The notes beneath the pieces were generated by a model that was not told where the DNA came from, made no database searches, and saw only the letters and a program-made list of their open reading frames with translations. Source: Sphingopyxis sp. DBS4 (GTDB taxonomy: Bacteria > Pseudomonadota > Alphaproteobacteria > Sphingomonadales > Sphingomonadaceae). From it: a stretch of 64,000 bases of DNA. The first letter of the stretch is position 1. Every line of letters begins with the position of its first letter. Position numbers and translations under genes: made by a program. Below, one piece after another: positions 21 to 37,455 of this stretch. The DNA is taken from positions 1,809,001 through 1,873,000 of the forward strand of contig NZ_CP102384.1 in NCBI RefSeq assembly GCF_024628865.1. Reading direction: 5' to 3'.

Positions 21-986
21 TCAGCCCAGCATCGCGCGCCATTCGCGCGAGACATGTTCGCGATTCCCCGTCACCATCGACGCCGCGAGCCCCTGCGCAT
101 CGGCGAGCGCGATCACCTTCTCCGGCCCCAGCACGGTCAGCGCGGTCGCCCAGCCGTCGGCCATCATGCAGCTTCGATGCAGCACCGTCACCGACGACAC
201 GGCGCTGACGATCGGCCGCCCGGTCATCGGATCGAAGCTGTGCGAATAATGCCGCCCGTCCGCCACGAAGCCGCGCCGGTAGTTGCCCGAGGTCGCCACG
301 GACAAATCGTGCAGCGCGATGCGCCACGGTGCGATCGACGTCGTCGGCGGCATCTCGACATCGACCCACCACGGCTGGCCGTCGGGCCGTATCCCCTGCC
401 CACGCAATTCGCCCCCCAGTTCGAGCAGAAAATGACGCACGCCCTGCCCGAGCAGCCATTCCGCGGCGAGATCGACGCCATAGCCCTTGGCGATCCCCGA
501 CAGGTCGAGCTGTGCGCCTTCGCTGCGCCGGATGCGGCCCTCCTCCAGTTCGATGCGCCGCTCCACGATAGGCTGATCGCGCGGGACGCGATCCACCGGA
601 CCCCGGCTCCCGAAGCCCCAGCATTCGGTGATCGCCCCCAGAGCGGGATCGAAGGCGCCATCGCTCGCATCCGCAATCGCCAGCGCCGCCGCGACGACAT
701 GCGCGAACTCAGGCGGAATCTCCCGCCAAGCACCCGCGGGCGCCCGGTTGAAGCGCGACAGGTCGGAGTCAGGCTCCCACTGGCTCATCTGCCGGATGAC
801 GCGGCCGAACGCCGCTTCCACGCCCGCCGCGAGATCGGACAAGGTGGCGACCGCGTGCAGCGACCAGCTCGTCCCCATCGCTTCGCCCGACAGGGTCTGG
901 ATGCCCCCCGCGCCGGTCCGCGCCGCAAAGGCGGCGGGCGTCAACGCGCGAGGGATCAGGATGCGGTCGCCGGGTTGTTCGCTCAG
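21..986 (-). CDS. apbE: FAD:protein FMN transferase (ApbE family)
   Basis: About 321 aa. ApbE moves FMN from FAD onto a Ser/Thr of exported redox proteins. Family blocks seen in order: LSGEAMGTSWSL near the N-terminus, DPALGAITECWGFG, LDLSGIAKGYGVD, LLELGGELRGQG and HSFDPMTGRPI (metal/flavin site). Last gene of a four-gene operon with DUF4198, DUF2271 and PepSY genes. Start: a TTG at 944 has no ribosome site. A CTG at 986 lies 6 nt after GAGGTGAT, an 8-nt match to the anti-SD, and restores the N-terminal RILIP segment; it overlaps the upstream stop as CTGA. The CTG start is inference. The product should act in the periplasm, though no clear signal peptide is visible. Confidence 0.9.
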   Translation of the reverse strand: MSEQPGDRILIPRALTPAAFAARTGAGGIQTLSGEAMGTSWSLHAVATLSDLAAGVEAAFGRVIRQMSQWEPDSDLSRFNRAPAGAWREIPPEFAHVVAAALAIADASDGAFDPALGAITECWGFGSRGPVDRVPRDQPIVERRIELEEGRIRRSEGAQLDLSGIAKGYGVDLAAEWLLGQGVRHFLLELGGELRGQGIRPDGQPWWVDVEMPPTTSIAPWRIALHDLSVATSGNYRRGFVADGRHYSHSFDPMTGRPIVSAVSSVTVLHRSCMMADGWATALTVLGPEKVIALADAQGLAASMVTGNREHVSREWRAMLG

Positions 987-1831
987 GGCGCCATCACCTC
1001 GAGCGTGGTGACATAACCCGCGCGGCGCTGCGGCGCGGCCGATGCCGGCGGCGGGCCGCCCTCGCCACCTTCACCACGCGCGGTCTGCGGGGTGGTGACG
1101 TTCATCCAGTACATACCGGGTTCGGGCCAGGTCACCGCGACCTTGCCCTCGGCATCGGTCTTGAGGTCGATCTGGCCGAGCTGGTCGCGATAGCGGATAC
1201 CGCCGGGGATCACCGTGACCGGCAGGTCCGCGGCGGGCTTGCCGTCGAGCAGGAACTGGAACGTCGCCGCCTCGCCCGCGAACAGGTCGTTGGGATGCGT
1301 CACCGGCACCATCTCGATCCCCTTGCCGGCCGGCTTGAACACCGTCGTCGTCGGCTCGCCGACCGTCACGAAAATCTCGTTGCGGTTGTTCGCTTCAGCG
1401 GTCTGCACATTGGTCGCCCCCGCCGGCAGCCGCTCGGCAAGGTTGGCAGCAGTGGTGCCGCGCGGCAAGCGCTCGGTCTTGCCGTTCAGTTCATAGCTGC
1501 CCATCAACGAATCCGACACCGACGCGATACGATAGGTGCCCTTCTGCGTCAGATGGACGTCGAAGGTGCTGCGATAGCGCCCCGTCGCCTGGTTCTCGAT
1601 CGCCACCTCGCTGCCGTCGGGCGCCCAGGCATGGACGGCATCGAGCCGCAGCGGCTGATGCTCGAAATAGAAAAGGTCGTTCGACACCGCGGCATCGACC
1701 GTCACCCACACGTCATCGCCCGACAGCACCGTCGACGACGGCATCATCCACTGGCGATGCGCGCTCGCCGGAACCGCGGCCATCGCCGCCAGCGCGACCG
1801 TCGCCGCGAAACCCCAAATCTGCTTCTTCAT
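983..1831 (-). CDS. DUF4198 domain-containing periplasmic protein
   Basis: 282 aa with a clear signal peptide (residues 1-21, ending ASA) and a mature N-terminus starting HRQWM, as is usual for DUF4198 proteins. The body looks like a beta-sandwich carrier or binding protein; the biochemical role is unknown. A Gly/Pro/Ala-rich stretch lies near residues 255-270. Operon position 3 of 4, between DUF2271 and apbE. Members of the family co-occur with PepSY, DUF2271 and ApbE genes in iron-responsive clusters, so a part in periplasmic metal or flavin redox chemistry is inferred. The ATG at 1831 was chosen because it begins the signal peptide; the longer open frame upstream runs through the DUF2271 gene. 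Confidence 0.85.
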   Translation of the reverse strand: MKKQIWGFAATVALAAMAAVPASAHRQWMMPSSTVLSGDDVWVTVDAAVSNDLFYFEHQPLRLDAVHAWAPDGSEVAIENQATGRYRSTFDVHLTQKGTYRIASVSDSLMGSYELNGKTERLPRGTTAANLAERLPAGATNVQTAEANNRNEIFVTVGEPTTTVFKPAGKGIEMVPVTHPNDLFAGEAATFQFLLDGKPAADLPVTVIPGGIRYRDQLGQIDLKTDAEGKVAVTWPEPGMYWMNVTTPQTARGEGGEGGPPPASAAPQRRAGYVTTLEVMAP

Positions 1832-1851
1832 TGCCCTGCCCTTTCGTTGGA

Positions 1852-2376
1852 TCAGCGGAAGGCGACCGTGACGGCGCCGAGTTCGGTCTTGCCCGCGGCG
1901 CGCCCGCCCGGGCCGGCCTTGGCAGGCCAGGTGAAGGGGATGCGGAGCAGTTCGCGTCCGCCGACCTCGCGCGCGGCCTCGATCACCAGCACATAATTGC
2001 CGGGCGCCGTGGCGCCGAGCTGGGCGCGGCTGAACGAGATTTTCTGCGCGCCCGGCGCGCGCGTCGCGCCGGTGATACCGTTCGCGGGAAATGTCATCGT
2101 CCGGCCCGAGGCGCGCCACCATTGGCGCACGTCACGCAGCCATTTGGTGCCCTCGTTGTTCTTCATGTCATAATCGTACCAGACCGCGACCGTTTTCGCC
2201 GGAGCGCCCGCTTTCTCGACCCAGATCGCGACGTAAGGACGATGATATTCGGCGACCTTAAGCTGCGGGATGGTGATGGTGACGTCCATCGTCGCGGGCG
2301 CCGCGGCCAGGACCGGGGCGGTCAGCACGGCGCTCAGCGAGCCGCCGATCAGAAGCGTGCGCGAAGGGGACTGCAT
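1852..2376 (-). CDS. DUF2271 protein, probable covalently flavinylated periplasmic redox protein
   Basis: 174 aa with a signal peptide (residues 1-25, APVLAAA). The DUF2271 core includes YVAIWVEKAG and WYDYDMKNNEG near residues 48-76. Residues 99-105 read NGITGAT, close to the D-G-x-S/T-G-A-T acceptor motif that ApbE enzymes modify with FMN, with Thr105 as the predicted attachment residue. With apbE two genes downstream and a PepSY membrane protein just upstream, a periplasmic electron carrier is likely. The flavin itself is inferred. The start is supported by TAAGGAGAG a few bases before ATG 2376. Confidence 0.85.
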   Translation of the reverse strand: MQSPSRTLLIGGSLSAVLTAPVLAAAPATMDVTITIPQLKVAEYHRPYVAIWVEKAGAPAKTVAVWYDYDMKNNEGTKWLRDVRQWWRASGRTMTFPANGITGATRAPGAQKISFSRAQLGATAPGNYVLVIEAAREVGGRELLRIPFTWPAKAGPGGRAAGKTELGAVTVAFR

Positions 2377-2387
2377 GAAGACTCTCC

Positions 2388-3041
2388 TTAGTGGATGAAG
2401 ATGATCGCGATGGCCGCGGGAAGGATCAGGCCGGCGCCGACGAGCGGCCAGGTGCTCTTGCGCTTCGCCGAATGCAGCCAGAGCAGGAACAGGCCGGTGA
2501 TCGCGAAGATCAGGCAGGCGAAGGCGAAAACATCGATGAACAGGCTCCACTCGCCGCCCGAATTGCGGCCCTTGTGGAGATCGTTGAGATAGGAAATCCA
2601 GCCGCGGTCGGTGACCTCGCTCGATACCGCGCCGCTCGCGCGGTCGATCGCAACCCAGGCATCGCCGCCGGGCCGCGGCGCGGGCAGATAGACTTCGTCG
2701 GCGGACCATTCGGCCTCGCCGTTCGCCTTGACCGGGAAATGATCCTCGACCCAGGCCGCGACGGGCCGCGGCAGGACGCCCTTGCCCCCGGCCGGATCGG
2801 CGCCGAGCTGGCCCAGCACCGCCTGCGGCATCTGCGCCGTCTTTTCGACGACAACGGGCGCCCCCTCGATGTCGGCGGCATGATTGAGCGTGAAGCCGGT
2901 GATCGCGAACAGCAGCAGGCCGATCAGGCTGATCGCCGAGCTCATCCAGTGCCACATATGCAACTGCTTCAGCCAGAAGGCTTTGCGGCTCTTCTTGACC
3001 GGCGGGCGCGGGGATGTGCGCGAGGATGGGGGTGCGTGCAT
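2388..3041 (-). CDS. PepSY-associated transmembrane protein
   Basis: 217 aa. After a basic Pro-rich N-terminus come a His-containing amphipathic segment (LKQLHMWHWM, 25-34), TM1 (about 34-52), a periplasmic PepSY-like stretch (about 55-165) with ARPSRAV-type acidic/aromatic patches, TM2 (about 166-185) and TM3 (about 195-215). PepSY-TM proteins of this kind can move electrons across the inner membrane; here one could feed the flavinylated DUF2271 protein. First gene of the operon, preceded by an iron-box-like palindrome 35 bp upstream. ATG 3041 is preferred to the further upstream codon, which lies over the regulatory region. Confidence 0.82.
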   Translation of the reverse strand: MHAPPSSRTSPRPPVKKSRKAFWLKQLHMWHWMSSAISLIGLLLFAITGFTLNHAADIEGAPVVVEKTAQMPQAVLGQLGADPAGGKGVLPRPVAAWVEDHFPVKANGEAEWSADEVYLPAPRPGGDAWVAIDRASGAVSSEVTDRGWISYLNDLHKGRNSGGEWSLFIDVFAFACLIFAITGLFLLWLHSAKRKSTWPLVGAGLILPAAIAIIFIH

Positions 3042-3075
3042 GGGGACTTCTGGTTGAAAACGATGCCCGCCATTA

Positions 3076-3092
3076 TCGAGAACGATTCGCAA
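3076..3092. promoter_or_regulatory. Fur-type iron box upstream of the PepSY-DUF2271-DUF4198-apbE operon
   Basis: TCGAGAACGATTCGCAA matches the perfect palindrome at 48219-48235 in 15 of 17 positions, including the whole CGATTCGCAA half. It lies 35 bp before the first gene of the operon, inside an AT-rich stretch that is unlike its surroundings. Fur-like regulation by iron is inferred from position and shape. Confidence 0.5.
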
Positions 3093-3221: not shown

Positions 3222-4013
3222 ATGATCCGCCTCTTTCTATCCATCGACATGGTCGGCTCGACCCAGTTCAAGGCCCGTTTTTCGGGCCAGGGAAGTCAGG
3301 GCTGGCTCGAGGTGTTCCAGGCCTTTTTCTGCAATTTCCCGTTGATTCTCGCAGGGCAGGTCGGCTTCGAATTCATCGACGACGAGCGCACGCCGTCGAT
3401 CGACATCTGGAAGGCGATGGGCGACGAGGTCATTTTCGCCGCCGAGCCGCAGAGCGCCGAAGAGGCGGCGTCGATCCTGCGGGCGCTGCTCCGTGCGATG
3501 GCACTCTACGAAAGCCGTTATTTCGAGCGCATTCCGCTGCGGCTCAAGGGCACCGCCTGGCTCGTCGCCTTCGGTGAACAGAATATCGAGCTCGACATCG
3601 CGGAACTGGCGGCGGGCGACGGGGCGCGGCATATCGACTATATCGGCCCCGACGTCGATCTGGGGTTCCGCCTTTCCAAATACGCCCGCCCGTCGAGCCT
3701 TGTCGTCTCGCTCGACCTTCTCGAACAATTGCTGGGTGCCCGCAACGCGGGCGACCTCGCCTTCCACCTCGTCGGCCGCGACGAACTCAAGGGCGTGATG
3801 TTCGGGCGCCCCTATCCGATCGTCTGGGTCAGCGACGCCGAAACCGGCTTCGACTTCCTGCCGTGGGAAATCGAGGAATGCCCGCTCGTTGCCGCGGCGG
3901 CCGACGCGCCGCCCAGTGAGCCGGAACGATTGCGGGGCGCGATCGCCGACATGCGGCTTTATCTGCGCAAGATGCATGGCGTCGACCGCGCGCCGCTGGT
4001 GCTGGGAAGCTAG
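3222..4013 (+). CDS. Class III adenylate cyclase-like protein
   Basis: 263 aa soluble protein with one cyclase homology domain (about 1-205). FLSIDMVGST carries the first metal Asp (D9). WKAMGDEVIF carries a Lys (K64) at the adenine-specifying position and the second metal Asp (D68). IDYIGPDVDLGFRL places D139 at the partner adenine-contact position, D146 in place of the usual Asn, and R150 at the transition-state Arg. These residues suggest a working adenylate cyclase with one substitution. There is no sensory domain. It stands alone, next to an RsbU-type phosphatase and near a cyclic-nucleotide-binding-fold protein (8243-9634). Activity is inferred. Confidence 0.75.
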   Translation: MIRLFLSIDMVGSTQFKARFSGQGSQGWLEVFQAFFCNFPLILAGQVGFEFIDDERTPSIDIWKAMGDEVIFAAEPQSAEEAASILRALLRAMALYESRYFERIPLRLKGTAWLVAFGEQNIELDIAELAAGDGARHIDYIGPDVDLGFRLSKYARPSSLVVSLDLLEQLLGARNAGDLAFHLVGRDELKGVMFGRPYPIVWVSDAETGFDFLPWEIEECPLVAAAADAPPSEPERLRGAIADMRLYLRKMHGVDRAPLVLGS

Positions 4014-4034
4014 GGCTGGTCACGTTGAGGGAAT

Positions 4035-4062
4035 CGTCATCCCGGCGAAGGCCGGGATGACG
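4035..4062. repeat. Short palindromic repeat, GTCATCCCGGC family
   Basis: Near-perfect hairpin CGTCATCCCGG-CGAAG-GCCGGGATGACG between the cyclase-like gene and the convergent phosphatase gene. The same unit forms both arms of the element at 56682-56758. Confidence 0.85.
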
Positions 4063-4102
4063 AGATAAGAACACGGAGTTTCTGGGTTTACTCGATCATG
4101 CC

Positions 4103-5725
4103 CTAACCGCCCCCCGCCGGCCCTTCATAGCAGACCACCAGAATCGCGATATCGTCGGACTGCGGAATTTCGCCGACGAAGGCGCGCACGCTGTCGGCGA
4201 GGCCTTCGGCGATATAGCGCGCCGATGGATTCTCGCGGCTGCGCTCCAGCGCCGCCCGAATACGCGCGGCGGTATAGAGTTCCTCGTCCGGCCCCGTAGC
4301 CTCCGACACGCCATCGGTGAACAGGACCACCGCGTCGCCGGGCTCCAGCGTGAAGCGGTCCGAGCGATATTGGACATCGTCGAAGATGCCCATCGCCATG
4401 CCCTGCTGCTTCTCCAGCCGCTCGACGCGGCCGTCCGCGCGCACGATGAAGGGCGCTTCGTGGCCGGCGTCGCTATAGACGACGCTGCCGTCGCGCAGGT
4501 CCAATATGCCGGCGAGCGCGGTGACGAACATCTCCGCCACATTGTCGCGCGCGAGTTCGGCGTTGACGCGCGTCATGATCTCTGCCGTCGAGGTCGCGGA
4601 CAACGCCTGCGCCTTGAACAGCGTCGTGGTCATCGCCATGAACAGCGCCGCCGGCACCCCCTTGCCCGCGACGTCGCCGACGACGAAGAACAGCCGGTTC
4701 CGGTCGATCAGGAAATAATCGTAAAGGTCGCCGCCGACCTGCTTCGCCGGTTCGAGCATCGCAAAGACGTCGAGGTCGGTGCGCCCCGGAAAGGGCGGGA
4801 ATTTGCGCGGCAGCATCCCGACCTGAATGTCGCGCGCCGCGGTCAACTCGCCCTCGACGCGTTCGCGCGCCGCGGTCGCGGTCTCGACCTCGATCAGATA
4901 GCGCTGCAGCCGCGCGATCATTCCCGACATCGCCTCGGCGAGGCTGCCGACCTCGTCGCGCCGCGCGCCGCCGAGTTCCTGTATCGCGAGCAGTTCGCGC
5001 TCGTCGGGCTCGAAGCTGCGTTCCTCCATCCCGCGGGTGAAGGCGGTAAGCTGCGCCAGCGGCCGCACGATCCGCCCGATCAGCAGCCAGCCGACGGCGA
5101 GCGAAAGCGCGAACATGACGACCCCGACCGCGATCGACTGGATCAGCGCCTTGCGGAGGCTCGCGTCGAGTTGGTGCAGGTCGATGTCGGCCCCGATGAC
5201 GTAGGTGCGCCCGTCGCGCATCCGCATCGGTTTGTAGATCGAGCGGAAGCGGCCGAAGCTGTCGCTATATTCGTCGAACCGCACCCGTCCATCGCGAAAG
5301 CTCTCGCGCAAGCGGGCAGGCGCCGTATCATAGAGCGCGAAGAAGCGCGTCTCTGTCCCCGATTGCATTTCGGCAATCGTCGCGCTGGTCGCGACGGTAC
5401 GTATCTGCGGTCCGAACTGCATATAGGTATAGGCGTAGACCAGCCCCGACTCGTTCGCGAAATGCGACAGCCGGTCCTGCACGACATCGAATTGCTCGGC
5501 CGAGACCGACCTCGCGTCGCTGATTCCGTCGTGATAGCCGCGCGGCACGATTTCCTGCACCGCATTGGCCGCGGTGACGAGTTGCCGGTCGATTCCGGCG
5601 AGTATCTCGGCGCGATCGATCGTGTAGAGCACGACCGAATAGGCCGTCGCCGCGATCAGGTTGAGCGCGAACAGCAGCAAAAGCAGCTGGGGCTTGAGCC
5701 CGAATTTTCGCTTGCGTCCCGTCAT
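4103..5725 (-). CDS. RsbU-type membrane PP2C phosphatase: sensor, HAMP, SpoIIE domain
   Basis: 540 aa from ATG 5725. TM1 (about 12-34), periplasmic sensor region (35-195), TM2 (about 198-220), HAMP and short coiled coil (220-310), SpoIIE phosphatase (320-535). The metal-binding acidic residues are all present: GGDLYDY, GDVAGKGVPAAL, DAGHEAP, FTDGVSEA and SDDIAIL, so it should be active. Such enzymes dephosphorylate a STAS antagonist, here probably the product of 10849-11181, releasing the RsbW-like partner. Divergent from the transporter operon with about 110 bp between. ATG codons at 5743 and 5788 are alternative starts. Confidence 0.9.
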   Translation of the reverse strand: MTGRKRKFGLKPQLLLLLFALNLIAATAYSVVLYTIDRAEILAGIDRQLVTAANAVQEIVPRGYHDGISDARSVSAEQFDVVQDRLSHFANESGLVYAYTYMQFGPQIRTVATSATIAEMQSGTETRFFALYDTAPARLRESFRDGRVRFDEYSDSFGRFRSIYKPMRMRDGRTYVIGADIDLHQLDASLRKALIQSIAVGVVMFALSLAVGWLLIGRIVRPLAQLTAFTRGMEERSFEPDERELLAIQELGGARRDEVGSLAEAMSGMIARLQRYLIEVETATAARERVEGELTAARDIQVGMLPRKFPPFPGRTDLDVFAMLEPAKQVGGDLYDYFLIDRNRLFFVVGDVAGKGVPAALFMAMTTTLFKAQALSATSTAEIMTRVNAELARDNVAEMFVTALAGILDLRDGSVVYSDAGHEAPFIVRADGRVERLEKQQGMAMGIFDDVQYRSDRFTLEPGDAVVLFTDGVSEATGPDEELYTAARIRAALERSRENPSARYIAEGLADSVRAFVGEIPQSDDIAILVVCYEGPAGGG

Positions 5726-5838
5726 CGCCCCTGCCGTCACCATCGCCGCTTTTGTCCGTGCTGACAACCGTGCGGCTGACTTCATCAATATTTTGTTGCT
5801 ATGCGATGCGGCATCGCGGGGCGGAGGGACGAAACATC

Positions 5839-8253
5839 TTGATCGACAGGCTAAACCGTCTGCTGCGCGTCGAGCCGGGCGAAGCCCCGAAACTCGCGCA
5901 GTTCGCGCTGTTCGGCTTTCTGCTGCAAATGGGGCTCGGGATCGGTTTCAGCGCGGGCGACGCCGCCTTCTTCAGCCATGTCGGCGCCGACGCGCTGCCG
6001 GTGATCTTCATGCTCACCCCGGCGGTGATGCTGGTCTACACCGGCCTGTTTTCGGTCCTGATGGTCCGCTTTTCGCTGAACCATATGGTGATGGCGACCC
6101 TGGCGATGCTCGTCGCGGGCGGTGTGATCCTGTGGGCGCTGCTCGGCCGCGCGGGCGACAGCGCGCCGCTCTATTACGTACTGAAGCTCTATCTCGCGAT
6201 GTGGTATATCGCGCTCTACAGCCTGTTCTGGAACTTCACCGACGCCTATTTCGACATTCAGGACGCAAAACGGCTGTTCCCGCTGTTCGCCGCCTTTTGC
6301 GCGCTGGGGACTGCGGCCGGGGCCCTGATCGTCAATATGCTTGCCGCCGTCGTCCCCTTACTGGGTTTCCTCCTGCTCTGGGCCGGCATTGCCCTCGCGA
6401 CGATGCCGCTGGCCTGGTCGCTCGGCCGCCGCTGGCCGCAGCTCAGCGAAAGCGACGCCGAGGAAAGCGGGCAACCGGCGGGGGTAGCCGCGCAGGTCGC
6501 GATGATGGCGAACAGCTTTCGTTCCTCGCGCTATACGCTTGCCCTGACGGCAACCCTGTTCGTCACGCTGTTGATGACCAATCTTGCCGAATATCAATAT
6601 GCGGCGGTGCTGCAGCAGGGGCGCAGCGAGGCCCAGCTCGCGGCGCTGTTCGGCGCGCTCTATGCGGCGTCGAACATCTTCAACCTCTTTGTCTGCCTGT
6701 TCGTCTTCAACCGGCTGGTGATGCGCCTCGGCGTCCGCAACGTCGCCTTCATCCTGCCCCTCACCTATTTCGCGGTGTTCGGATTCTTCTTTCTCAGCAG
6801 CGGCTATGCCGCCGCGATCGCCGCCTTTTTCGCCTATCACGGCGTGCTGACCTCGATCGAATACAACAATCAGAATCTGCTGTTCAACGCGGTGCCCTCG
6901 GCGATCAAGCGCCCGCTCCGCACCGTGATCGAGGGAATGTGCGAACCGCTCGCCAGTCTGATTGCGGGCGGCTTCCTGCTCTATGCCGCCAAATATCTGG
7001 ATCTGCGCGAGCTTTCGGGAATCGGAGTGATATTGGGCGCGCTGCTGATCGCGGTCGTCGTTCTGCTGCGCCAGCTCTATCCGGCCGCGATGGCGGGCAA
7101 CATGCGGCAGGGCTGGCTCAATTTCGGCGCGCCCGCTCCCACGCTGACGCCCGAGGCCGAGGCGCGGCTGCGCGATCTGTCGGCGTCGCCCGGCACGCCG
7201 CTCCACGCCCTGGCAGTCAGCTTGCACGGCGAAACGGACCAGCCCCACCTCGCCGATCCGGACGCCATCGCCGATCTCCTCGCGGAGGCCCCCCGGCAAA
7301 GCCCCCGCGAGCGCCGCCAGAGCGCGGCGATGATCGCCGATTTTGGCGAAACCGCCATTCCGCATCTGGTCGCCGCGCTGCGCGATACGCGCCGACCGCA
7401 GGGCGAACGCGCGGTGGCGGCGCGCGCGCTCGCGAACCTGTCGCAAGCGCAGTTCGCGGCGCAATCGGATATGATCGTCGCCGCCGAACTCGGCGCCGCG
7501 CAGCAGGCGATCGACAGTGCCCGGCGGCTCGACGCGGCCGACGATGGCTCGGGCCTTACCGGCCTGCTCGCCCGCGCGCAGCGCGAGCGCGCGAGCGCCG
7601 CGATCGATTTCCTGCTCGAACTGCTGGCGCTGCGCGGCCTGCTGCCCGATTTCGACCTGCTGATCGTGTCGCTCCATTCCGCCAATGCCAAGGTGCGCGC
7701 CAACGCCATGGAGGCGGTCGAGACGGGCATCGGCCATGCGCTGTTCCGTCACGTCGAAGCGGTGCTGCGACCGCCCGAACCGGATGCCGCCGCGCCGCCA
7801 TCCGGTGACGAGGTCGTCGCACTCGCCGAGACCGCTCTCGTCAGCGGCGCACCGGTCGAGGTGGCCGTTGCGCTGGCGCTGCTCCACCGGCGCCTTTCGC
7901 AAGGCGAATTTGCTCGCCGGACCGCGCCTCTGATCCGCGCGGGAATGCCGACCCCGCTGCGCCTCCAGTTGCTCGCGCTGCTCGGCCTGCGGCGTGCGGC
8001 CGGTCCGGGCCGCGTCGACCTGATCGACGCGCTGCGCCGAACCCCGAATTTCGCCGCCGCGACGCTCGAAGCACTCGCCAGCCTTGCCGAGGCAGCGCGG
8101 ACCGAGCCTCTTGTCGATGCCTGGAGCGGCGTCACCGCCAGCGGCGACCGCTTCTGGATCGCACACGACGATATCGGGCGGGTCGCCGCGCGGCACCCCG
8201 ACCTCGCGCTGGTGATGCTGCGCGTGCAGGACGGGCGCAACCATGCGGCGTAA
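5839..8253 (+). CDS. ADP/ATP carrier-like (TLC/Npt-type) membrane transporter fused to HEAT repeats
   Basis: 804 aa from a TTG preceded by GGAGGG at 10 nt; an in-frame ATG at 5806 has no ribosome site. The N-terminal 435 or so residues form about 12 TM helices resembling the nucleotide transporters of Chlamydia and plastids, with the signature DAKRLFPLF at 142-150. The C-terminal 340 residues are Ala/Arg-rich helical HEAT-like repeats. The substrate is unknown; free-living bacteria do not normally import ATP, so a signalling or other transport role is possible. First gene of a three-gene overlapping operon with two membrane sensors. Confidence 0.8.
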   Translation: MIDRLNRLLRVEPGEAPKLAQFALFGFLLQMGLGIGFSAGDAAFFSHVGADALPVIFMLTPAVMLVYTGLFSVLMVRFSLNHMVMATLAMLVAGGVILWALLGRAGDSAPLYYVLKLYLAMWYIALYSLFWNFTDAYFDIQDAKRLFPLFAAFCALGTAAGALIVNMLAAVVPLLGFLLLWAGIALATMPLAWSLGRRWPQLSESDAEESGQPAGVAAQVAMMANSFRSSRYTLALTATLFVTLLMTNLAEYQYAAVLQQGRSEAQLAALFGALYAASNIFNLFVCLFVFNRLVMRLGVRNVAFILPLTYFAVFGFFFLSSGYAAAIAAFFAYHGVLTSIEYNNQNLLFNAVPSAIKRPLRTVIEGMCEPLASLIAGGFLLYAAKYLDLRELSGIGVILGALLIAVVVLLRQLYPAAMAGNMRQGWLNFGAPAPTLTPEAEARLRDLSASPGTPLHALAVSLHGETDQPHLADPDAIADLLAEAPRQSPRERRQSAAMIADFGETAIPHLVAALRDTRRPQGERAVAARALANLSQAQFAAQSDMIVAAELGAAQQAIDSARRLDAADDGSGLTGLLARAQRERASAAIDFLLELLALRGLLPDFDLLIVSLHSANAKVRANAMEAVETGIGHALFRHVEAVLRPPEPDAAAPPSGDEVVALAETALVSGAPVEVAVALALLHRRLSQGEFARRTAPLIRAGMPTPLRLQLLALLGLRRAAGPGRVDLIDALRRTPNFAAATLEALASLAEAARTEPLVDAWSGVTASGDRFWIAHDDIGRVAARHPDLALVMLRVQDGRNHAA

Positions 8254-9634
8254 CCGGAAAATCGGCATCCAGACGCTGCTGCTGCGAATATTCCTGCCGG
8301 TGGTCGCGCTCGCGGCGCTGCTGGGGGCGATTTTCGTCTACAACCGGATCAACGCCACGATCCTGCGCCAGTTCGACGACCGGCTGATCGCGACGAGCGC
8401 GCTGACCGGCGCGCTGATCGATCCGGCCGATCACGACTGGCTGATCGACGCAGCAAAGACCAGGCGCGACCCGGCGGCGATCGAGCATGACATCCGCTAC
8501 CGCCGCAATGTCGAGCCGATGCGCCGGATTCGCGAGCGGCTGGGGCTCACCTATATCTATACGCAGGTGACGAGCGGCCGGGCCGAAGTGCGCTACATCC
8601 TCGACGGCACCGAGGGTGAGGAGCATACGGCGATCGGATCGCCCGACACCCTGCCCGAAGAGACGATGGCCGGGCTCCGCGACGTGCAGCGTCGGCGGGA
8701 TATTTATGTCTCGCCGGTCGAATATCAGGAAAAATGGGGGCTGCTGAAAACCGCGGCGGCACCGGTCTATGGCGCCGACGGAGTGATCAGCGGCACGGCC
8801 GGCGCAGACGTCAATGTGTCGGTCATTCGCGTCGCGACCCAGAACGCCCTGTTCCTGAGCGCAATGATCGGCATCGCCTCGCTTCTCGCCTGCCTGCTGG
8901 TCACCTTGCAGATCGTGCGGCGCGTCGCGCGGCCGATCGAGCGGCTGACGCAGGAAGCGCTACGCATCGCCGCCGGCGATCATCGCCCACCCGCCGATGG
9001 GCACGCCCCGCGCGAGGCGCGCGATCTCACCGCTTCGCTCGCGGCACTGAGCGCCCACGCGACCGCCGATCTCGAAAGCGCCGCCACGCGCGCCGCGCGG
9101 CATCGGCTGGCGGCGAGCGAAGCATGGCTGTTCGGCGGCGAAGGCGGAGCGCCGGTCATGCCGGTGAACGGCCCGCACGACCGTGCGTCCGAAGCCCGCG
9201 CGCCGCGCACCGGCCCGGTCGATCCCGAACGGGAGCACGCGGCCATCCCGGCCGAGGTCATCGATCATATGACAGCGCTGGCCTCGATCGCGCCGTTCGA
9301 CAGACTGTCAGCCCGCGAGCTTCTGCTCGTCGCGCAGCACGTCCGCGCGCGATTGTCGCAGCCGGGCGCGCTGCTGATCGAGCGCGGCCAGCCCGCGCAG
9401 ATGCTGTACATCGTCATCGCAGGCTGGGGGATGGCGGGCGAATTGCGCGCTCCGTCGATCTTCGATGTTCCATCGCTGCTCTTTTCGCTTCCCGCCGCAC
9501 AGGATTACCGCGCGGGCGCCGAAGGGATGCAATCGCTTTGCCTCGCGCGCGCGCACCTGTTCACCATCGCACGCGAATGCCCGGAGTTCATCGTCGGCCT
9601 GCTCGACATGGAGGCGCTGCCGTCATGCGGATAA
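8243..9634 (+). CDS. Membrane sensor with HAMP and cyclic nucleotide-binding-like domain
   Basis: 463 aa. TM1 (11-33), a periplasmic CACHE-like sensor (about 35-190, including LGLTYIYTQV and VYGADGVISGTAG), TM2 (about 195-217), HAMP (218-265), a linker, then a cNMP-binding beta-roll (about 335-455). The phosphate-binding cassette is weak: FDVPSLL replaces the usual FGE-x-ALL, while an Arg remains in DYRAGAEG, so ligand binding is uncertain. Overlaps the transporter stop by 11 nt and the next gene start by 10 nt, implying translational coupling. It may sense a periplasmic signal and the product of the nearby cyclase-like protein. Confidence 0.78.
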   Translation: MRRNRKIGIQTLLLRIFLPVVALAALLGAIFVYNRINATILRQFDDRLIATSALTGALIDPADHDWLIDAAKTRRDPAAIEHDIRYRRNVEPMRRIRERLGLTYIYTQVTSGRAEVRYILDGTEGEEHTAIGSPDTLPEETMAGLRDVQRRRDIYVSPVEYQEKWGLLKTAAAPVYGADGVISGTAGADVNVSVIRVATQNALFLSAMIGIASLLACLLVTLQIVRRVARPIERLTQEALRIAAGDHRPPADGHAPREARDLTASLAALSAHATADLESAATRAARHRLAASEAWLFGGEGGAPVMPVNGPHDRASEARAPRTGPVDPEREHAAIPAEVIDHMTALASIAPFDRLSARELLLVAQHVRARLSQPGALLIERGQPAQMLYIVIAGWGMAGELRAPSIFDVPSLLFSLPAAQDYRAGAEGMQSLCLARAHLFTIARECPEFIVGLLDMEALPSCG

Positions 9635-10848
9635 GGTCGATCATCCTTGCCGCGGCGATCCCGCTGCTGCTGCTGCTTGCGGCAGTGAACGGCGCCCTCC
9701 TCTATTTTCAGACGAAGGCCGAGATGCGACGCGGCCTCGACGAGCGCGCGCTTGCGGTGGCGATTACCACCGCCGAATTCCTCTCGGCGATGGACGATCC
9801 GGCAGAATCGGTCGGCAGCGCACCGCGCCGTGCGGCGCTGGTGTCGGCAGCGCGGCACGTCGAAGGTCTCGAAGGCCTGTATCTGGTGGACGCCGCCGGC
9901 CGGGCCACCGCGCTCGTGACCGCGCATCGGCGGTGGACTCCATCCCTAGCCGCACCGCGCGGCGCGGCCGAGGTCGGTGCGATGACGAACGCCGACGGAA
10001 ACCGCCATGTCGTCGCGCGTGCGCGTGTCGCGGGCGGCGGCTTCGTGGCCGCTCGTATCGATGCCGAACCGCTGTTCGCGCGGCTGGACGATCTGTTGCG
10101 CTGGATCGTCGCCGGGGTCGCGGCGGCGGGAGTCCTCGGCCTGACCGCCGGCTGGCATGTCGCGCGACGAATCCAGCGCGAACTGGCGGTAAGCCGGCAG
10201 TTGATGACCGCGCTCGACACGGGAGGTCCTACGCCCGATACGAGCGCGCTGACCATTATCGAAGCCTCCGATCTCGCCGCTGCGCTCCGCCTGCTCGACG
10301 CCAATCGGCGCGCCACGCTTTCGGCAATCGACGCGCGGCGAACGCGCGAGGATCGCGACCGGACCGACATCGCGGCCTTTGCCACCTGGCGCGCTGCGGC
10401 CTTTCCATCGCTCGATACGACGGTTGCGGGCGGAGGGATCGCAGCCCGGCTATGCGGCGACGCGGCGCCCGGCTGCTTTTTCGCGCTCTGCACAAACGAG
10501 GATCGGGCTGCGCTGATCGTCGGCGAATGCAACGGCGACGACGCGCGCGAAGCATTGGCGCGCGCGGTCGCCGCGCGCGATTTTCTGAAACGGCATTGGC
10601 ATGAAGGGACTCCCGACGAAGCGCTGGCCGCCGTGCGCGAGGCTTTCGCCGCGCTGCGGCTTCATCATCTGGCGTGGAGCGAGCGCAATCCGCCGACCGC
10701 CCCCTGCCTGCTGGCGATCATCGATGAGGCAACTGCCGCGGAATCCTATGCCCGTATGGCCCCCGACGCGCCGCCCGCAACAACGGTCGAGCGGATCGAC
10801 GCTTTGCTCAAATTGGACGGCGTCCTCGCCGTCGTCAGTCCAGCCTGA
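9625..10848 (+). CDS. Membrane sensor with degenerate SpoIIE-like domain
   Basis: 407 aa starting at ATG 9625 inside the end of the previous gene. TM1 (5-24), periplasmic region (25-148), TM2 (about 150-172), HAMP-like linker, then a C-terminal region (about 255-400) whose order of segments resembles a SpoIIE phosphatase. CFFALCTNEDRAALIVGEC stands where the family has a GDV-G-G segment, and the metal Asp residues are missing. It is likely a catalytically dead paralogue that could bind, but not dephosphorylate, a STAS protein. Third gene of the transporter operon, ending against the convergent STAS gene. The assignment rests on weak similarity and position. Confidence 0.65.
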   Translation: MRIRSIILAAAIPLLLLLAAVNGALLYFQTKAEMRRGLDERALAVAITTAEFLSAMDDPAESVGSAPRRAALVSAARHVEGLEGLYLVDAAGRATALVTAHRRWTPSLAAPRGAAEVGAMTNADGNRHVVARARVAGGGFVAARIDAEPLFARLDDLLRWIVAGVAAAGVLGLTAGWHVARRIQRELAVSRQLMTALDTGGPTPDTSALTIIEASDLAAALRLLDANRRATLSAIDARRTREDRDRTDIAAFATWRAAAFPSLDTTVAGGGIAARLCGDAAPGCFFALCTNEDRAALIVGECNGDDAREALARAVAARDFLKRHWHEGTPDEALAAVREAFAALRLHHLAWSERNPPTAPCLLAIIDEATAAESYARMAPDAPPATTVERIDALLKLDGVLAVVSPA

Positions 10849-11181
10849 TCAACGGAGCGCGGCAAGCCCCGCATCGACATCGGCCTCGATGGCAAAGATC
10901 GGCGTGAAACCGCTGATGTCGAAAACCTCGTGAACCGCCGGCGACAGGCCGGTCAGCACCAGCCGGTGGCCGCCCGCCTTCGCCGCTTTCATGCCCTTCA
11001 AAAAGACGCGCAGCCCGGCCGAACTGACATAGGCGACCCCGGCCAGATCCATGATCGTCGCCGCATGCTGCTGAACGCGATCGGGCAGCACCGCCTCGAG
11101 TTCCGGCGCGCTGTTGCTGTCGATTCGGCCCGATGCCGCGACGAGCCAGGCACCGTCGAGTTGCTGTTCGCTGATATCCAT
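10849..11181 (-). CDS. STAS-domain anti-anti-sigma factor (RsbV/SpoIIAA-like)
   Basis: 110 aa single STAS domain. The conserved phosphorylation segment reads YVSSAGLRV (about 51-59), with Ser residues in place. RsbV-like proteins are phosphorylated by an RsbW kinase and dephosphorylated by an RsbU phosphatase; both partners are encoded within 6 kb (11308-11736 and 4103-5725). The stop codon directly abuts the stop of the convergent sensor gene. Divergent from the RsbW-like gene, with about 125 bp between them for promoters. Confidence 0.9.
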   Translation of the reverse strand: MDISEQQLDGAWLVAASGRIDSNSAPELEAVLPDRVQQHAATIMDLAGVAYVSSAGLRVFLKGMKAAKAGGHRLVLTGLSPAVHEVFDISGFTPIFAIEADVDAGLAALR

Positions 11182-11307
11182 CGTTCCGTCCCATTGCCCT
11201 GCGGCGCGCGCCGCCGCGCACCCTTATGTAGCGATTGTGAAATTTTTCCACTCGATTAAGCTGACGTCCCGCGGGCGCAAGCCCCGCATTCTGGAACGAT
11301 CGGCATC

Positions 11308-11736
11308 GTGGCGACCGAATTCAACTGCACCTTGTCCGATGGCAATGCCGGCTTGCAGGCGATGATGGACGGCGCGGAGGCCTTTCTCGCGGACAATGCC
11401 ATTCCCGATCGGACCGCCGCCCGGGTCCTGATCGCGCTGGACGAGATCGTCAGCAATATCTTCGCCCATGGCGTCCGCGAGGGCGAGCCGACCGTCGCGG
11501 TCGGCCTGCGCATCGCGGAGGGGCGGATCGCGGGCGAGATCGTCGACGACGGCATCGCCTTCGATCCGCTCGCCGCCCCGCCGCCCGACACCGGGCTGTC
11601 GCTCGAAGATCGGCCGATCGGCGGGCTCGGCCTTCATATCGTCCGCGAAACGATGGACGAAATCCGCTATGATCGCGATCACGGACAGAACCGTCTACGA
11701 TTCCATAAGATGTTCGCGCTAAAGGATTCGGACTAG
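11308..11736 (+). CDS. Anti-sigma regulatory factor, RsbW-like serine kinase ATPase
   Basis: 142 aa HATPase_c_2 protein from a GTG start. N-box ALDEIVSNIFAHG (about 46-58), G1-type DDGIAFDP (about 78-85) and G2-type GGLGLHIV (about 107-114) are intact, so ATP binding is likely. It is the expected switch kinase for the divergent STAS protein. Its final target could be a sigma factor or an enzyme; no sigma factor gene lies in the window, so the output is unknown. Followed 47 bp later by the SET-domain gene. Confidence 0.88.
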   Translation: MATEFNCTLSDGNAGLQAMMDGAEAFLADNAIPDRTAARVLIALDEIVSNIFAHGVREGEPTVAVGLRIAEGRIAGEIVDDGIAFDPLAAPPPDTGLSLEDRPIGGLGLHIVRETMDEIRYDRDHGQNRLRFHKMFALKDSD

Positions 11737-11783
11737 GGACCGCGGCGCCGCCTGTGGGGGCACGGCGCCAAGGGGGAAGCTGC

Positions 11784-12260
11784 ATGTTCACATCGTCGCG
11801 CAAATTCGTGCCCGATCCGGCGGCGCCCGCGCCTTTGCTCGCGGTCTGCCGCGACGCGGCGCTGGGACTTTGCGTCCGGGCGCTCGGCGCCTGCGCACCG
11901 GGAAGCGTCATCGAACGCTTCGAGGGCGACATCGGCCCGCGCGTTTCGCAGCACAGCCTGCAGGTGCGACCGGGGTCGCACATCGCGGGGACGCGGCATA
12001 TCGGCTATCTGTCGCACGCCTGCGACCCCAACTGCCGCCTCGACATGGCGCGCTTCGAGCTGGTGGCGCTGCGCATGATCGCGGCGGGCGAACTGTTGTC
12101 GATCGACTATGCGGCGACCGAGGACCGGCTCTATGCGCAATTCGCCTGCGCCTGCGGCGCGCCCGATTGCCGGCGCTGGATCACCGGGCGTGACGAGCCG
12201 ATCAGTGCGGCGGGCGTTCGCTATCTGGCGGGACTGCGCGGCGCCGTCGCTCCCGTCTGA
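11784..12260 (+). CDS. SET domain protein (putative protein lysine methyltransferase)
   Basis: 158 aa. Compact SET domain: GYLSHACDPNC (the NHxCxPN motif variant), LLSIDYA (the catalytic Tyr segment) and a post-SET Cys cluster, FACACGAPDCRRW (about 130-142), for zinc. AGGGGGAAG a few bases before ATG 11784 fixes the start. It is followed at 12 bp by a PLP-dependent decarboxylase and probably co-transcribed. The substrate is unknown; a protein Lys or a small amine is possible. Its small size suggests little beyond the catalytic core. Confidence 0.85.
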   Translation: MFTSSRKFVPDPAAPAPLLAVCRDAALGLCVRALGACAPGSVIERFEGDIGPRVSQHSLQVRPGSHIAGTRHIGYLSHACDPNCRLDMARFELVALRMIAAGELLSIDYAATEDRLYAQFACACGAPDCRRWITGRDEPISAAGVRYLAGLRGAVAPV

Positions 12261-12272
12261 CGAGGTCAAGCG

Positions 12273-13478
12273 ATGACGGCCCCTTGGTGGCAACGCGACG
12301 ACCTTCGCCATGATGCCGACCGGCTGATCTTCGCCGGCCGCGACGTCGCGACGCTCGCCGCGGCCGCGGAAGGCCCGCTCTATCTCTATTCCGCCGCGCG
12401 TATCCGCTCCAATCTGGCGCGCCTGCACGCCGCGCTCGCCGAAACCGGCCGCCCGCACCGCCTCTATTATGCAATGAAGGCCAACCGCCACCCGCCCCTC
12501 CTCGCAATGCTGGCCGCAACCGGCGCGTGCGGCATCGATATCTGTTCGCCACGCGAACTGGAGCGCGCGCTGGCCTGCGGCTTCACCGCCGACCGGATCA
12601 GCTTCACCGGCACCGGCGTCGCACGCCGCGATCTCGATACGCTCCTCGCCCACGACGACCTCGTCATCAATTGCGATTCGATCGGCATGATTCGCCGGAT
12701 CGGCGAACGCGAGCCCGGCCGCGCGATCGGCCTTCGCGTCAATCCGGCGCGCGGAGTCGGCTATGGCGACAGCGAGCGCCTGACCTATGCCGGGGCGCGG
12801 ACGACCAAGTTCGGGATCTACCGCGAACAATGGGCGGAGGCGCTGGCCGCCGCGCGAGCGCACGATCTTCGCGTCACCAGCCTGCATTTCCATGTCGGCT
12901 GCGGCTATCTCGACGAACAGCTCGCCGAGTGGGAAGCGGCGCTGGAAGCGGGCCTCGCTTTCCTCGCCGACCTCCCCGACGTGCGCGTCGTCAATATCGG
13001 CGGCGGCCTGGGCGTGCCGCACCGCGCATCGGACAAGCCGCTCGATCTTGCGAAATGGGCGGCGCTGCTGCGGCGCCATTTCGCCGGTCGCGCGGTCGAG
13101 ATCGCGGTCGAGCCCGGCGATTATCTGGTCAAGGACGCCGGAATGCTCCTGCTCGGCGTCACCAATGTCGAGCGCAAGCGGGACACGCTGTTCGTCAGCG
13201 TCGACGGCGGTTTCAACCTGCACCCCGAACCGGCCTTCTATGACCTCCCGTGCGAGCCCGTGGCCTGCGTTCCGCGCGCCTTAGACCCCGTGTCGTTCGA
13301 GCGCTGCACCGTGGCCGGCAACATCAACGAGGCGCTTGACCTCTGGGCCGAGGACGCGCTGCTACCCCCGCTCGAAGAGGGCGACGTCATCGCCCTGCTC
13401 AATGCCGGCGGCTATGGCGCCGCGATGAGTTCGGATCATTGTATGCGCGGCGTCTTTCGCGAAATTCTGCTCGACTGA
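12273..13478 (+). CDS. PLP-dependent decarboxylase, fold III (DAP/ornithine decarboxylase-like)
   Basis: 401 aa. An alanine-racemase-like barrel with the PLP Lys in YYAMKANRHP (about 67-76), SLHFHVGCG, NIGGGLGVPH and VEPGDYLV, then a C-terminal beta domain. The catalytic CESxD segment of diaminopimelate decarboxylase is replaced by TVAGNINEALDLW, so the substrate is probably not meso-DAP; ornithine, lysine or a modified amino acid are possible. Pairs with the SET gene 12 bp upstream. Start backed by GAGG at a 7 nt spacing. Confidence 0.85.
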   Translation: MTAPWWQRDDLRHDADRLIFAGRDVATLAAAAEGPLYLYSAARIRSNLARLHAALAETGRPHRLYYAMKANRHPPLLAMLAATGACGIDICSPRELERALACGFTADRISFTGTGVARRDLDTLLAHDDLVINCDSIGMIRRIGEREPGRAIGLRVNPARGVGYGDSERLTYAGARTTKFGIYREQWAEALAAARAHDLRVTSLHFHVGCGYLDEQLAEWEAALEAGLAFLADLPDVRVVNIGGGLGVPHRASDKPLDLAKWAALLRRHFAGRAVEIAVEPGDYLVKDAGMLLLGVTNVERKRDTLFVSVDGGFNLHPEPAFYDLPCEPVACVPRALDPVSFERCTVAGNINEALDLWAEDALLPPLEEGDVIALLNAGGYGAAMSSDHCMRGVFREILLD

Positions 13479-37332: not shown

Positions 37333-37455
37333 CAGTATCCCTTCCCCCAAAGGTGAACTACAAACGGCTTCGGGAAACTAACATGAGGAACGGTTTATCC
37401 AAAGCGCGATAGACGGATGTCTGAAGTCGGCGGAAGTCGATCTATTATCTTTCAT

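Follow-up and report, generated by a model that had tools for sequence, protein, structure and literature searches.

A conserved ten-gene block of Sphingopyxis sp. DBS4 combining an NTT-HEAT transporter, membrane sensors and a partner switch: a probable signaling module

Introduction

In the 64,000-nucleotide (nt) stretch of the Sphingopyxis sp. DBS4 genome analyzed here (NZ_CP102384.1, positions 1,809,001 to 1,873,000; hereafter the window), a cyclase-like gene, a transporter gene with HEAT repeats and two membrane sensor genes lie next to genes for an RsbU-type phosphatase, a STAS protein and an RsbW-like kinase, i.e., the components of a partner switch. Do these genes constitute one signaling module and, if so, what does it control? 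An initial annotation, made from the letters of the window, had delimited them to 3222..11736 and regarded them as a possibly undescribed, transporter-centered circuit that passes periplasmic and cyclic-nucleotide signals to a partner switch with an output outside the window. All seven gene products named there were found in place; yet, the block runs to position 13478, since two further genes, encoding a SET-domain protein and a decarboxylase-like enzyme dependent on pyridoxal phosphate (PLP), had been overlooked. From its synteny, the block is very probably one signaling module and not a chance cluster. Thus, the idea of a single conserved unit with an intact phosphatase-STAS-kinase triad stands, but the cyclic-nucleotide signal, the decayed state of a SpoIIE domain and the layout of the sensor with a nucleotide-binding end had to be revised.

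Multi-term queries of the open-licence literature returned no description of such a module: among the papers listed, none joins, by its terms and title, NTT-HEAT proteins with a partner switch, and none links the SET/PLP enzyme pair to either of them, an absence that is not proof.

Gene order and coupling within the block

Gene mapping across loci revealed ten genes spanning 3222-13478 of the window in the order CYC, RSBU, NTT-HEAT, SEN1, CNB, SEN2, STAS, HATP, SET and DECARB, of which RSBU and STAS are located on the reverse strand and all others on the forward strand. A transporter-alignment scan of named genomes yielded 37 loci, comprising 34 alphaproteobacterial, two gammaproteobacterial (L056 and L059) and one cyanobacterial (L060); with the window, the alphaproteobacterial set amounts to 35 loci. 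Order and orientation were identical in 30/30 complete alphaproteobacterial loci out of these 35, as scored for nine members, the transporter being the tenth and the one used to find the loci. The ordered loci come from Sphingomonas, Novosphingobium, Erythrobacter and Phenylobacterium, with transporter identity down to ~48%. Contig ends truncate four loci (L037, L044, L049 and L058), which were set aside. For the mapping, score thresholds of the family matches and start codons were chosen by script; the SEN1 and SEN2 profiles absorbed RSBU through shared sensor/HAMP parts, and RSBU open reading frames (ORFs) were removed by score before counting. Conservation of the gene set in relatives, which the initial annotation had put forward as a check, was thereby confirmed, and chance clustering was rejected on the basis of the synteny.

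The overlaps of the transporter and sensor genes noted initially were also found. In the window, the transporter gene overlaps the first sensor gene by 11 nt and the two sensor genes overlap by 10 nt. Across the alphaproteobacterial loci, with starts chosen by script, 4-nt overlaps were detected for SEN1/CNB in 31/35 and for CNB/SEN2 in 32/35, while SET and DECARB overlap by 4 nt in 14/31 loci and by 11 nt in 7/31. The tight coupling of transporter and sensors proposed initially is supported. STAS and HATP are divergent in 32/32 loci, with a spacer of 90-137 nt. SET follows HATP at a distance of 2-76 nt in all 32 alphaproteobacterial loci that possess HATP, and DECARB is present in 31 of them, the remaining one being cut by a contig end. 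The most labile junction is that of CYC and RSBU, where several loci hold unrelated ORFs. By eye, a gene located elsewhere in the window (35563-37350) resembles the ORF inserted at this junction in two Sphingomonas-group loci (L039, 4566-6383; L052, 4511-6349).

The partner switch

The triad appears intact, as initially described, with its key residues conserved. RSBU (4103..5725, reverse strand, 540 aa) consists of a membrane sensor, a HAMP-like region (E 0.036, below cut-off) and an active-type SpoIIE phosphatase domain (PF07228, E 1.1e-49), in which the metal-binding GGD and GD motifs are retained in 35/35 loci and the third-site Asp-Asp in 34/35, with one gap. The STAS protein (10849..11181, reverse strand) is of the anti-anti-sigma, RsbV-like type (PF01740, E 3.1e-16; TIGR00377 above cut-off) and keeps the serine motif YVSSAGLR in 32/32 loci. 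In turn, HATP (11308..11736, forward strand), an RsbW-like serine kinase, matches PF13581 (HATPase_c_2) above cut-off (E 7.5e-22) and displays the N-box Asn and GGLG in 33/33.

In the host genome, the single SpoIIE match at E<=1e-5 is RSBU. PF01740, the only STAS family counted (PF13466 was not used), was detected in one short frame, that of the block STAS, and in two frames of 568 and 578 residues that presumably encode transporters of the SulP type. Likewise, HATPase_c_2 was found in one short frame (HATP) and in 13 frames of 441-892 residues, presumably histidine kinases. Because the sole SpoIIE protein, short-frame STAS protein and short-frame kinase of the host are all encoded in the block, RSBU, STAS and HATP are very probably each other's partners and form a self-contained switch. 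In this host, no paralogue of the switch proteins was found that could hide a phenotype.

The divergent STAS/HATP spacer contains a conserved AT-rich element (11235..11258, TTGWGAAATTTTTCCACTCGATTA), a probable promoter or operator, which was delimited by eye and is recognizable in this way in many of the 32 aligned spacers. One copy within 3 mismatches is present in the window, compared to 0 in 100 shuffles. The general-stress-type promoter GGAAC-N16-18-CGTT was found in 0/32 and 0/34 sequences of the two divergent regions.

Among switches from the literature, the closest alphaproteobacterial one that we found is RbaV-RbaW-RbaY of Rhodobacter capsulatus, which likewise consists of a STAS protein, an HATPase and a PP2C-type phosphatase without an adjacent sigma factor gene (PMC3999984). 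However, RbaY carries a REC domain and is encoded elsewhere in the genome, and the parts of that article consulted describe no transporter, CNB protein, cyclase, SET protein or PLP enzyme for this system (PMC3999984). RSBU also shares the sensor-HAMP-SpoIIE layout of SiaA-type phosphatases and matches the SiaA family NF038263 over positions 196-551 with 70 bits, yet this is far under the family cut-off of 700 bits and, as compared with the SiaABCD pathway as generally known, no diguanylate cyclase or SiaB/SiaC-like gene is found among the block members.

The transporter, the sensors and the CNB-fold protein

NTT-HEAT (~5806..8253, forward strand, start codon uncertain) combines a membrane domain of the TLC/ATP-ADP-translocase-like type with HEAT repeats. 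The fusion of a TLC-type transporter with HEAT repeats had been proposed from the window, where the TLC match (PF03219) is below threshold (E 0.11; 11.7 bits with a cut-off of 21); relatives support it better, with TLC detected at E<=1 in 12/15 (best 8.4e-6) and the HEAT family PF02985 in 10/15. The C-terminal part matches alphaRep and HEAT-repeat chains. The membrane-domain alignment gave nothing at E<=1 against PDB chains, and one relative reached E 0.19 to the chloroplast ADP,ATP carrier. In locus L036 (10001-11350), the transporter read from the tblastn start hits an in-frame stop, due to either the choice of frame or a broken gene, and was excluded from set A6.

NTT-HEAT fusions occur widely (in cyanobacteria, Chlamydiaceae and oomycetes) and were stated to be functionally uncharacterized (Major, Embley and Williams, 2017; PMC5381601). 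The NTT-HEAT and NTT-HEAT-cNBD proteins of that study resemble those of the block in the TLC-like domain, the HEAT repeats and the adjacent or fused CNB gene, and the CNB-domain neighborhood and a possible functional link were already stated there. In contrast, the sensors, SpoIIE, STAS, the RsbW-like kinase, SET and the PLP enzyme are unmentioned in the portions of the article consulted, with "sphingo" absent from its main text (PMC5381601). In the block, moreover, a sensor gene separates CNB from NTT, and in the window CNB is fused to this sensor.

SEN1 and CNB occupy a single frame in the window (8243..9634, forward strand), which encodes a HAMP sensor (~1-300; HAMP E 3.9e-7) and a CNB-fold domain (~335-459). 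The initial annotation had described exactly such a sensor with a nucleotide-binding-like end, and both the HAMP and the CNB fold are there, but the fusion is restricted to three Sphingopyxis loci (the window, L024 and L147), while SEN1 and CNB are separate genes in the other loci examined. The fusion is therefore a local derivative and not the common layout; still, a joint action of the two products is suggested by it. The SEN1 C-terminus did not match SpoIIE when compared with it. The CNB-fold profile matches PKG chains (E about 5e-18). Aligned to PKG, 17/17 rows are devoid of the Glu of the phosphate-binding cassette, a cyclic-nucleotide contact, and, at the aligned column, of the Arg, which occurs one column later in 5/17. 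Canonical binding of cyclic nucleoside monophosphates is therefore doubtful despite the cyclase-like gene in the block, and the initially proposed input of cyclic-nucleotide signals is not supported.

The second sensor, SEN2 (9625..10848, forward strand), had been described as a HAMP sensor with a decayed SpoIIE end. It is a membrane sensor, but in the window it has no Pfam match, and over 21 relatives Pfam recognized HAMP in one and SpoIIE in 0/21. Profile-profile comparison of its end with 29 SpoIIE sequences (hhalign) gave P=0.0013 and a probability of 18.5%; among the controls, the lowest P was 0.014 in 7 control alignments and 0.076 in 20 column shuffles. Besides the negative Pfam result, two further results speak against a SpoIIE fold: the SpoIIE hidden Markov model run on 57 SEN2 sequences reached a best E of only 0.042, and the comparison with RSBU alone by hhalign a probability of just 4%. 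The metal-binding Asp residues are found at site 1 in 1/21, at site 2 in 1/21 and at both in 0/21 sequences, and SEN2 of L139 has VVGRISGKG where RSBU has a V[IV]GDV[SA]GKG-like motif. The ratio of nonsynonymous to synonymous substitution rates (dN/dS) of the domain is 0.17-0.37 in 4/5 pairs, the fifth being not computable, i.e., higher than that of RSBU, yet below 1. The end of SEN2 is a retained domain and, should it be a SpoIIE domain, has probably lost its catalytic activity. Purifying selection and its retention as far as cyanobacteria rule out a decayed sensor and point to a retained pseudo-enzyme, provided that the SpoIIE assignment is right.

The cyclase-like protein, SET and DECARB

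CYC (3222..4013, forward strand, 263 aa) resembles class III nucleotide cyclases and has no Pfam match to a cyclase. With a profile including distant paralogues, chain 1ybt (listed as lipJ), which we take to be the cyclase domain of Rv1900c, was recovered at E 8e-4, followed by the unrelated Rad26 (0.015) and then by class III cyclases (0.86-1.2). As Rad26 (0.021) outranks 1ybt (0.037) when the profile is built from block sequences only, the assignment relies mainly on conserved motifs. Asp 9 is found in 32/33 sequences (with a gap in one row), Gly-Asp 68 in 33/33, and Asp139 and Arg150 in 33/33; Asp146 takes the place of the transition-state Asn in 33/33, so that this hallmark is missing. The roles assigned here (metal-binding Asp, transition-state Asn and Arg) are presumed ones. 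Second, longer CYC-like paralogues without Pfam match occur in Erythrobacter (L079, 1036-2118) and Phenylobacterium (L080, 2-691). A Pycsar-like defense system, conceivable for a cyclase next to a CNB protein, was rejected, as PADLOC models gave 0 matches at E<=0.1 for nine window proteins and one cyclase paralogue.

SET (11784..12260, forward strand, 158 aa) is a lysine-methyltransferase-like protein (PF00856, 8.7e-6) with His-x-Cys, Tyr and three post-SET Cys residues in 33/33. DECARB (12273..13478, forward strand) is a PLP enzyme similar to diaminopimelate decarboxylase but with an altered active site (PF02784, 5.5e-36; TIGR01048 with 229 bits, under its cut-off of 297.9). Similar to LysA and BtrK, it belongs to the fold-III PLP decarboxylase family (E. 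coli LysA, E 4.8e-37; BtrK, E 1.6e-25) and retains the PLP Lys in 32/32. Unlike LysA, it carries Asn in 32/32 in the column of the E. coli LysA Cys, presumably the catalytic Cys of diaminopimelate decarboxylase, and EPGD, with Asp for the Arg of EPGR, in 30/32.

Three plasmid-borne homologues, from Eleftheria, Rhizobium and Rhodovulum (L141, 8986-10197; L142, 8941-10197; L143, 8935-10581), with 53-56% identity to DECARB, share the Cys-to-Asn and EPGD changes; hence, DECARB and these proteins probably represent a separate subfamily. Those of L141 and L142 adjoin genes of the nonribosomal peptide synthetase/polyketide synthase (NRPS/PKS) type, and in L142 and L143 a class I methyltransferase is adjacent or fused, which is a parallel to the pairing with SET in the block. 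The homologues of L142 and L143 are preceded, with an 8-nt overlap, by a small protein gene, whose product in L143 is TusA-like, below cut-off. In Novosphingobium mangrovi (L053, 16264-17949), SET and DECARB constitute one open frame of 561 codons, which suggests that they act together; this is one locus, and the frame change could be recent or erroneous.

Distribution and mobility

We found the transporter in 6/80 congeneric (Sphingopyxis) genomes, and exactly these six also contain a strong SpoIIE match. The probability of identical sets in 80 genomes is 3e-9 for unlinked genes and independent genomes, a figure that ignores relatedness and the linkage of the two genes. As these genes are linked, the identical sets show gain and loss together, and both events seem to concern the block as a whole. 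Four of the carriers (G003, G035, G836 and G841) were taken as L026, L028, L025 and L024 and counted once; a fifth block-bearing congener (G814) has CYC to part of SEN2 followed by a contig end and is outside the 30 complete loci. In a seventh congener (G847), SpoIIE is matched only weakly and in part (2.2e-6), and there is no transporter. Among 289 genomes of the class, 12 matched the SEN2 profile at E<=1e-6 and only the window's own match is full-length, which characterizes the block as rare and patchy; the other 11 matches span no more than ~200 of the 415 positions, in the region of the HAMP/linker, and we did not regard them as modules.

A concatenated-protein tree (without L056, L058 and L060) groups the loci mostly by genus, with S. 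flava joining Novosphingobium (support 1.0). When the tree is rooted on Thiohalocapsa, the Sphingomonas/Rhizorhabdus loci diverge earlier than the remaining sphingomonads and Phenylobacterium, which reflects either an unsafe root or a history that is not purely vertical. Outside the block, L024 is the only one of the compared loci whose flanks are similar to those of the window. A complete block with a TorF gene resides on an 850-kb plasmid of Sphingomonas paeninsulae, where RefSeq annotates its genes singly (MFS transporter, Crp/Fnr regulator, diaminopimelate decarboxylase, hypothetical proteins, etc.). To judge by these sequences, the block is sometimes transferred. Its carriers include the named strains Sphingopyxis witflariensis DSM 14551 and Novosphingobium mathurense SM117.

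A TorF-family porin gene (TIGR02001, three members tested) represents an eleventh, facultative gene that adjoins 20/35 loci at two alternative ends. In 14 loci it precedes CYC by 11-114 nt, while in six Phenylobacterium-group loci it follows DECARB at a distance of 17-63 nt. Its attachment at two different ends independently supports a link of the block to the outer membrane.

Relatives outside Alphaproteobacteria

A core of NTT-HEAT, two sensors and CNB recurs in two Cyanobacteriota genomes. Leptolyngbya (L060) encodes NTT-HEAT, which is cut by the contig start and has its own fused CNB, as well as SEN1, CNB and SEN2; in the other cyanobacterial locus (L139), the order is permuted to SEN1-CNB-SEN2-NTT-HEAT on one strand. 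A CNB domain fused to the transporter, as in Leptolyngbya, was looked for in the two gammaproteobacteria, L056 and L059, and not found. Thiohalocapsa (L059) possesses RSBU, NTT, SEN1, SEN2, DECARB, SET and HATP in a different arrangement, so that SET, DECARB and HATP accompany the transporter and the sensors also in one gammaproteobacterium. At E<=1e-15, SEN1 was detected in 1/229 genomes of the class of Thiohalocapsa and in 2/194 of the phylum of Leptolyngbya, samples that each include their own center genome. Given these cyanobacterial and gammaproteobacterial loci, the association of the transporter with two sensors is not confined to the alphaproteobacterial block.

Proposed mechanism and output of the module

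The sequence evidence comprises the kept gene order, the intact phosphatase-STAS-kinase triad, the NTT-HEAT/SEN1/CNB/SEN2 core and the SET-PLP enzyme pair. The explanation which we favor, with some reserve, is one module in which a membrane sensor complex feeds the partner switch and whose most economical target is encoded within the block; for its individual steps, we infer the formation of the complex, its ligand, a decoy role of SEN2 and the output. NTT-HEAT, SEN1, the CNB-fold protein and SEN2 would form a membrane complex reporting an extracytoplasmic or transported ligand, which in many species perhaps enters through the TorF porin, to a private partner switch. RSBU, itself a membrane phosphatase with a related sensor part, would dephosphorylate STAS and HATP would rephosphorylate it, while SEN2, devoid of the metal-binding residues, may bind or titrate STAS or HATP without catalysis. 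The free partner would then control SET, the PLP enzyme or the cyclase-like protein, the most economical targets given that the block contains no sigma factor gene and that neither a further short-frame STAS protein nor a further short-frame kinase was found in the host.

Several observations weigh against this explanation. Phenylobacterium SCN 70-31 (L035) is a true exception that keeps CYC to SEN2 only, and no STAS, HATP, SET or DECARB was found over the 5.4 kb to the contig end, the rest of this genome being unsearched. No STAS or CNB was found in the Thiohalocapsa locus, that of Thiorhodospira (L056) holds NTT, SEN1 and SEN2 only, and no CYC was found in the three non-alphaproteobacterial genomes. 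No TorF gene is present in the 64-kb window. Finally, it is solely gene order that points to SET or DECARB as the output. In L035 (15389-18152), an integrase-like ORF lies shortly after SEN2, at the place of the four absent genes.

The strongest rival retains the module but directs the switch at a sigma factor or regulator encoded elsewhere, SET and the PLP enzyme being regulated or accessory. RsbW-type kinases often target sigma factors, and a sigma factor or regulator encoded alongside is typical, if not universal, of Rsb-type systems. The rival can also invoke RbaW of R. capsulatus as a precedent for a distant, non-neighboring target, whose cognate sigma factor was sought without success, RbaV seeming to be the determinant regulator (PMC3999984). 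However, TorF is the only further conserved neighbor that we identified, and no sigma-factor or DNA-binding gene was seen among the genes conserved with the block, neighbor clusters being not all annotated and many being antisense ORFs. Moreover, wherever HATP is present SET follows (32/32), as does DECARB in 31/32, and L035 is without all of them. We therefore regard this rival as a possible but distinctly less probable explanation. As no sigma factor or DNA-binding protein was seen in the block, we consider, with moderate confidence, an output through SET, DECARB or CYC somewhat more likely than one outside the block. Accordingly, where the initial annotation had sought the output beyond the window, the two conserved enzyme genes inside it become the first candidates, with an outside output kept as the rival.

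Another option is a transport and metabolism operon, in which TorF and NTT-HEAT import a nucleotide-like or amino-acid-like substrate for processing by SET and the PLP enzyme, and the role of the switch is limited to the control of expression or transport activity. Such a function would suit the porin adjoining 20 of the 35 loci and the plasmid relatives of DECARB, two of the three being located beside NRPS/PKS-type genes and two adjacent or fused to a class I methyltransferase. Yet, known SET proteins act on proteins and, apart from the pair, none of the genes seen to be conserved with the block is catabolic or biosynthetic, which makes this option unlikely. That the genes merely cluster in a selfish or hitchhiking island, as the patchy distribution (6/80 congeners), the placement of S. 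flava and the plasmid copy might suggest, is highly improbable in view of the strict order in loci of several genera at transporter identities down to ~48%, the joining of TorF at two different ends, the SEN1-CNB and SET-DECARB fusions and the rearranged Thiohalocapsa locus that keeps SET, DECARB and HATP with the transporter.

Extending the favored explanation of one module with an in-block target, we tentatively propose that NTT-HEAT proteins may be sensory receptors (transceptors) and not, or not only, transporters. Together with a pair of paralogous sensors, a CNB adaptor without ligand and a pseudophosphatase, they would belong to an ancient receptor complex, which in Alphaproteobacteria would drive a switch with a post-translational or metabolic output (SET and an Asn-type diaminopimelate-decarboxylase-like PLP enzyme) instead of a sigma factor; this is a speculative proposal. 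The block provides NTT-HEAT fusions with a defined partner set in free-living bacteria, and it hints at a partner switch whose output would be enzymatic and at a pseudophosphatase kept over a long time.

Upstream neighbors of the block

Upstream of the block, the window (983-3092) encodes DUF4198 and PepSY-TM-like proteins.

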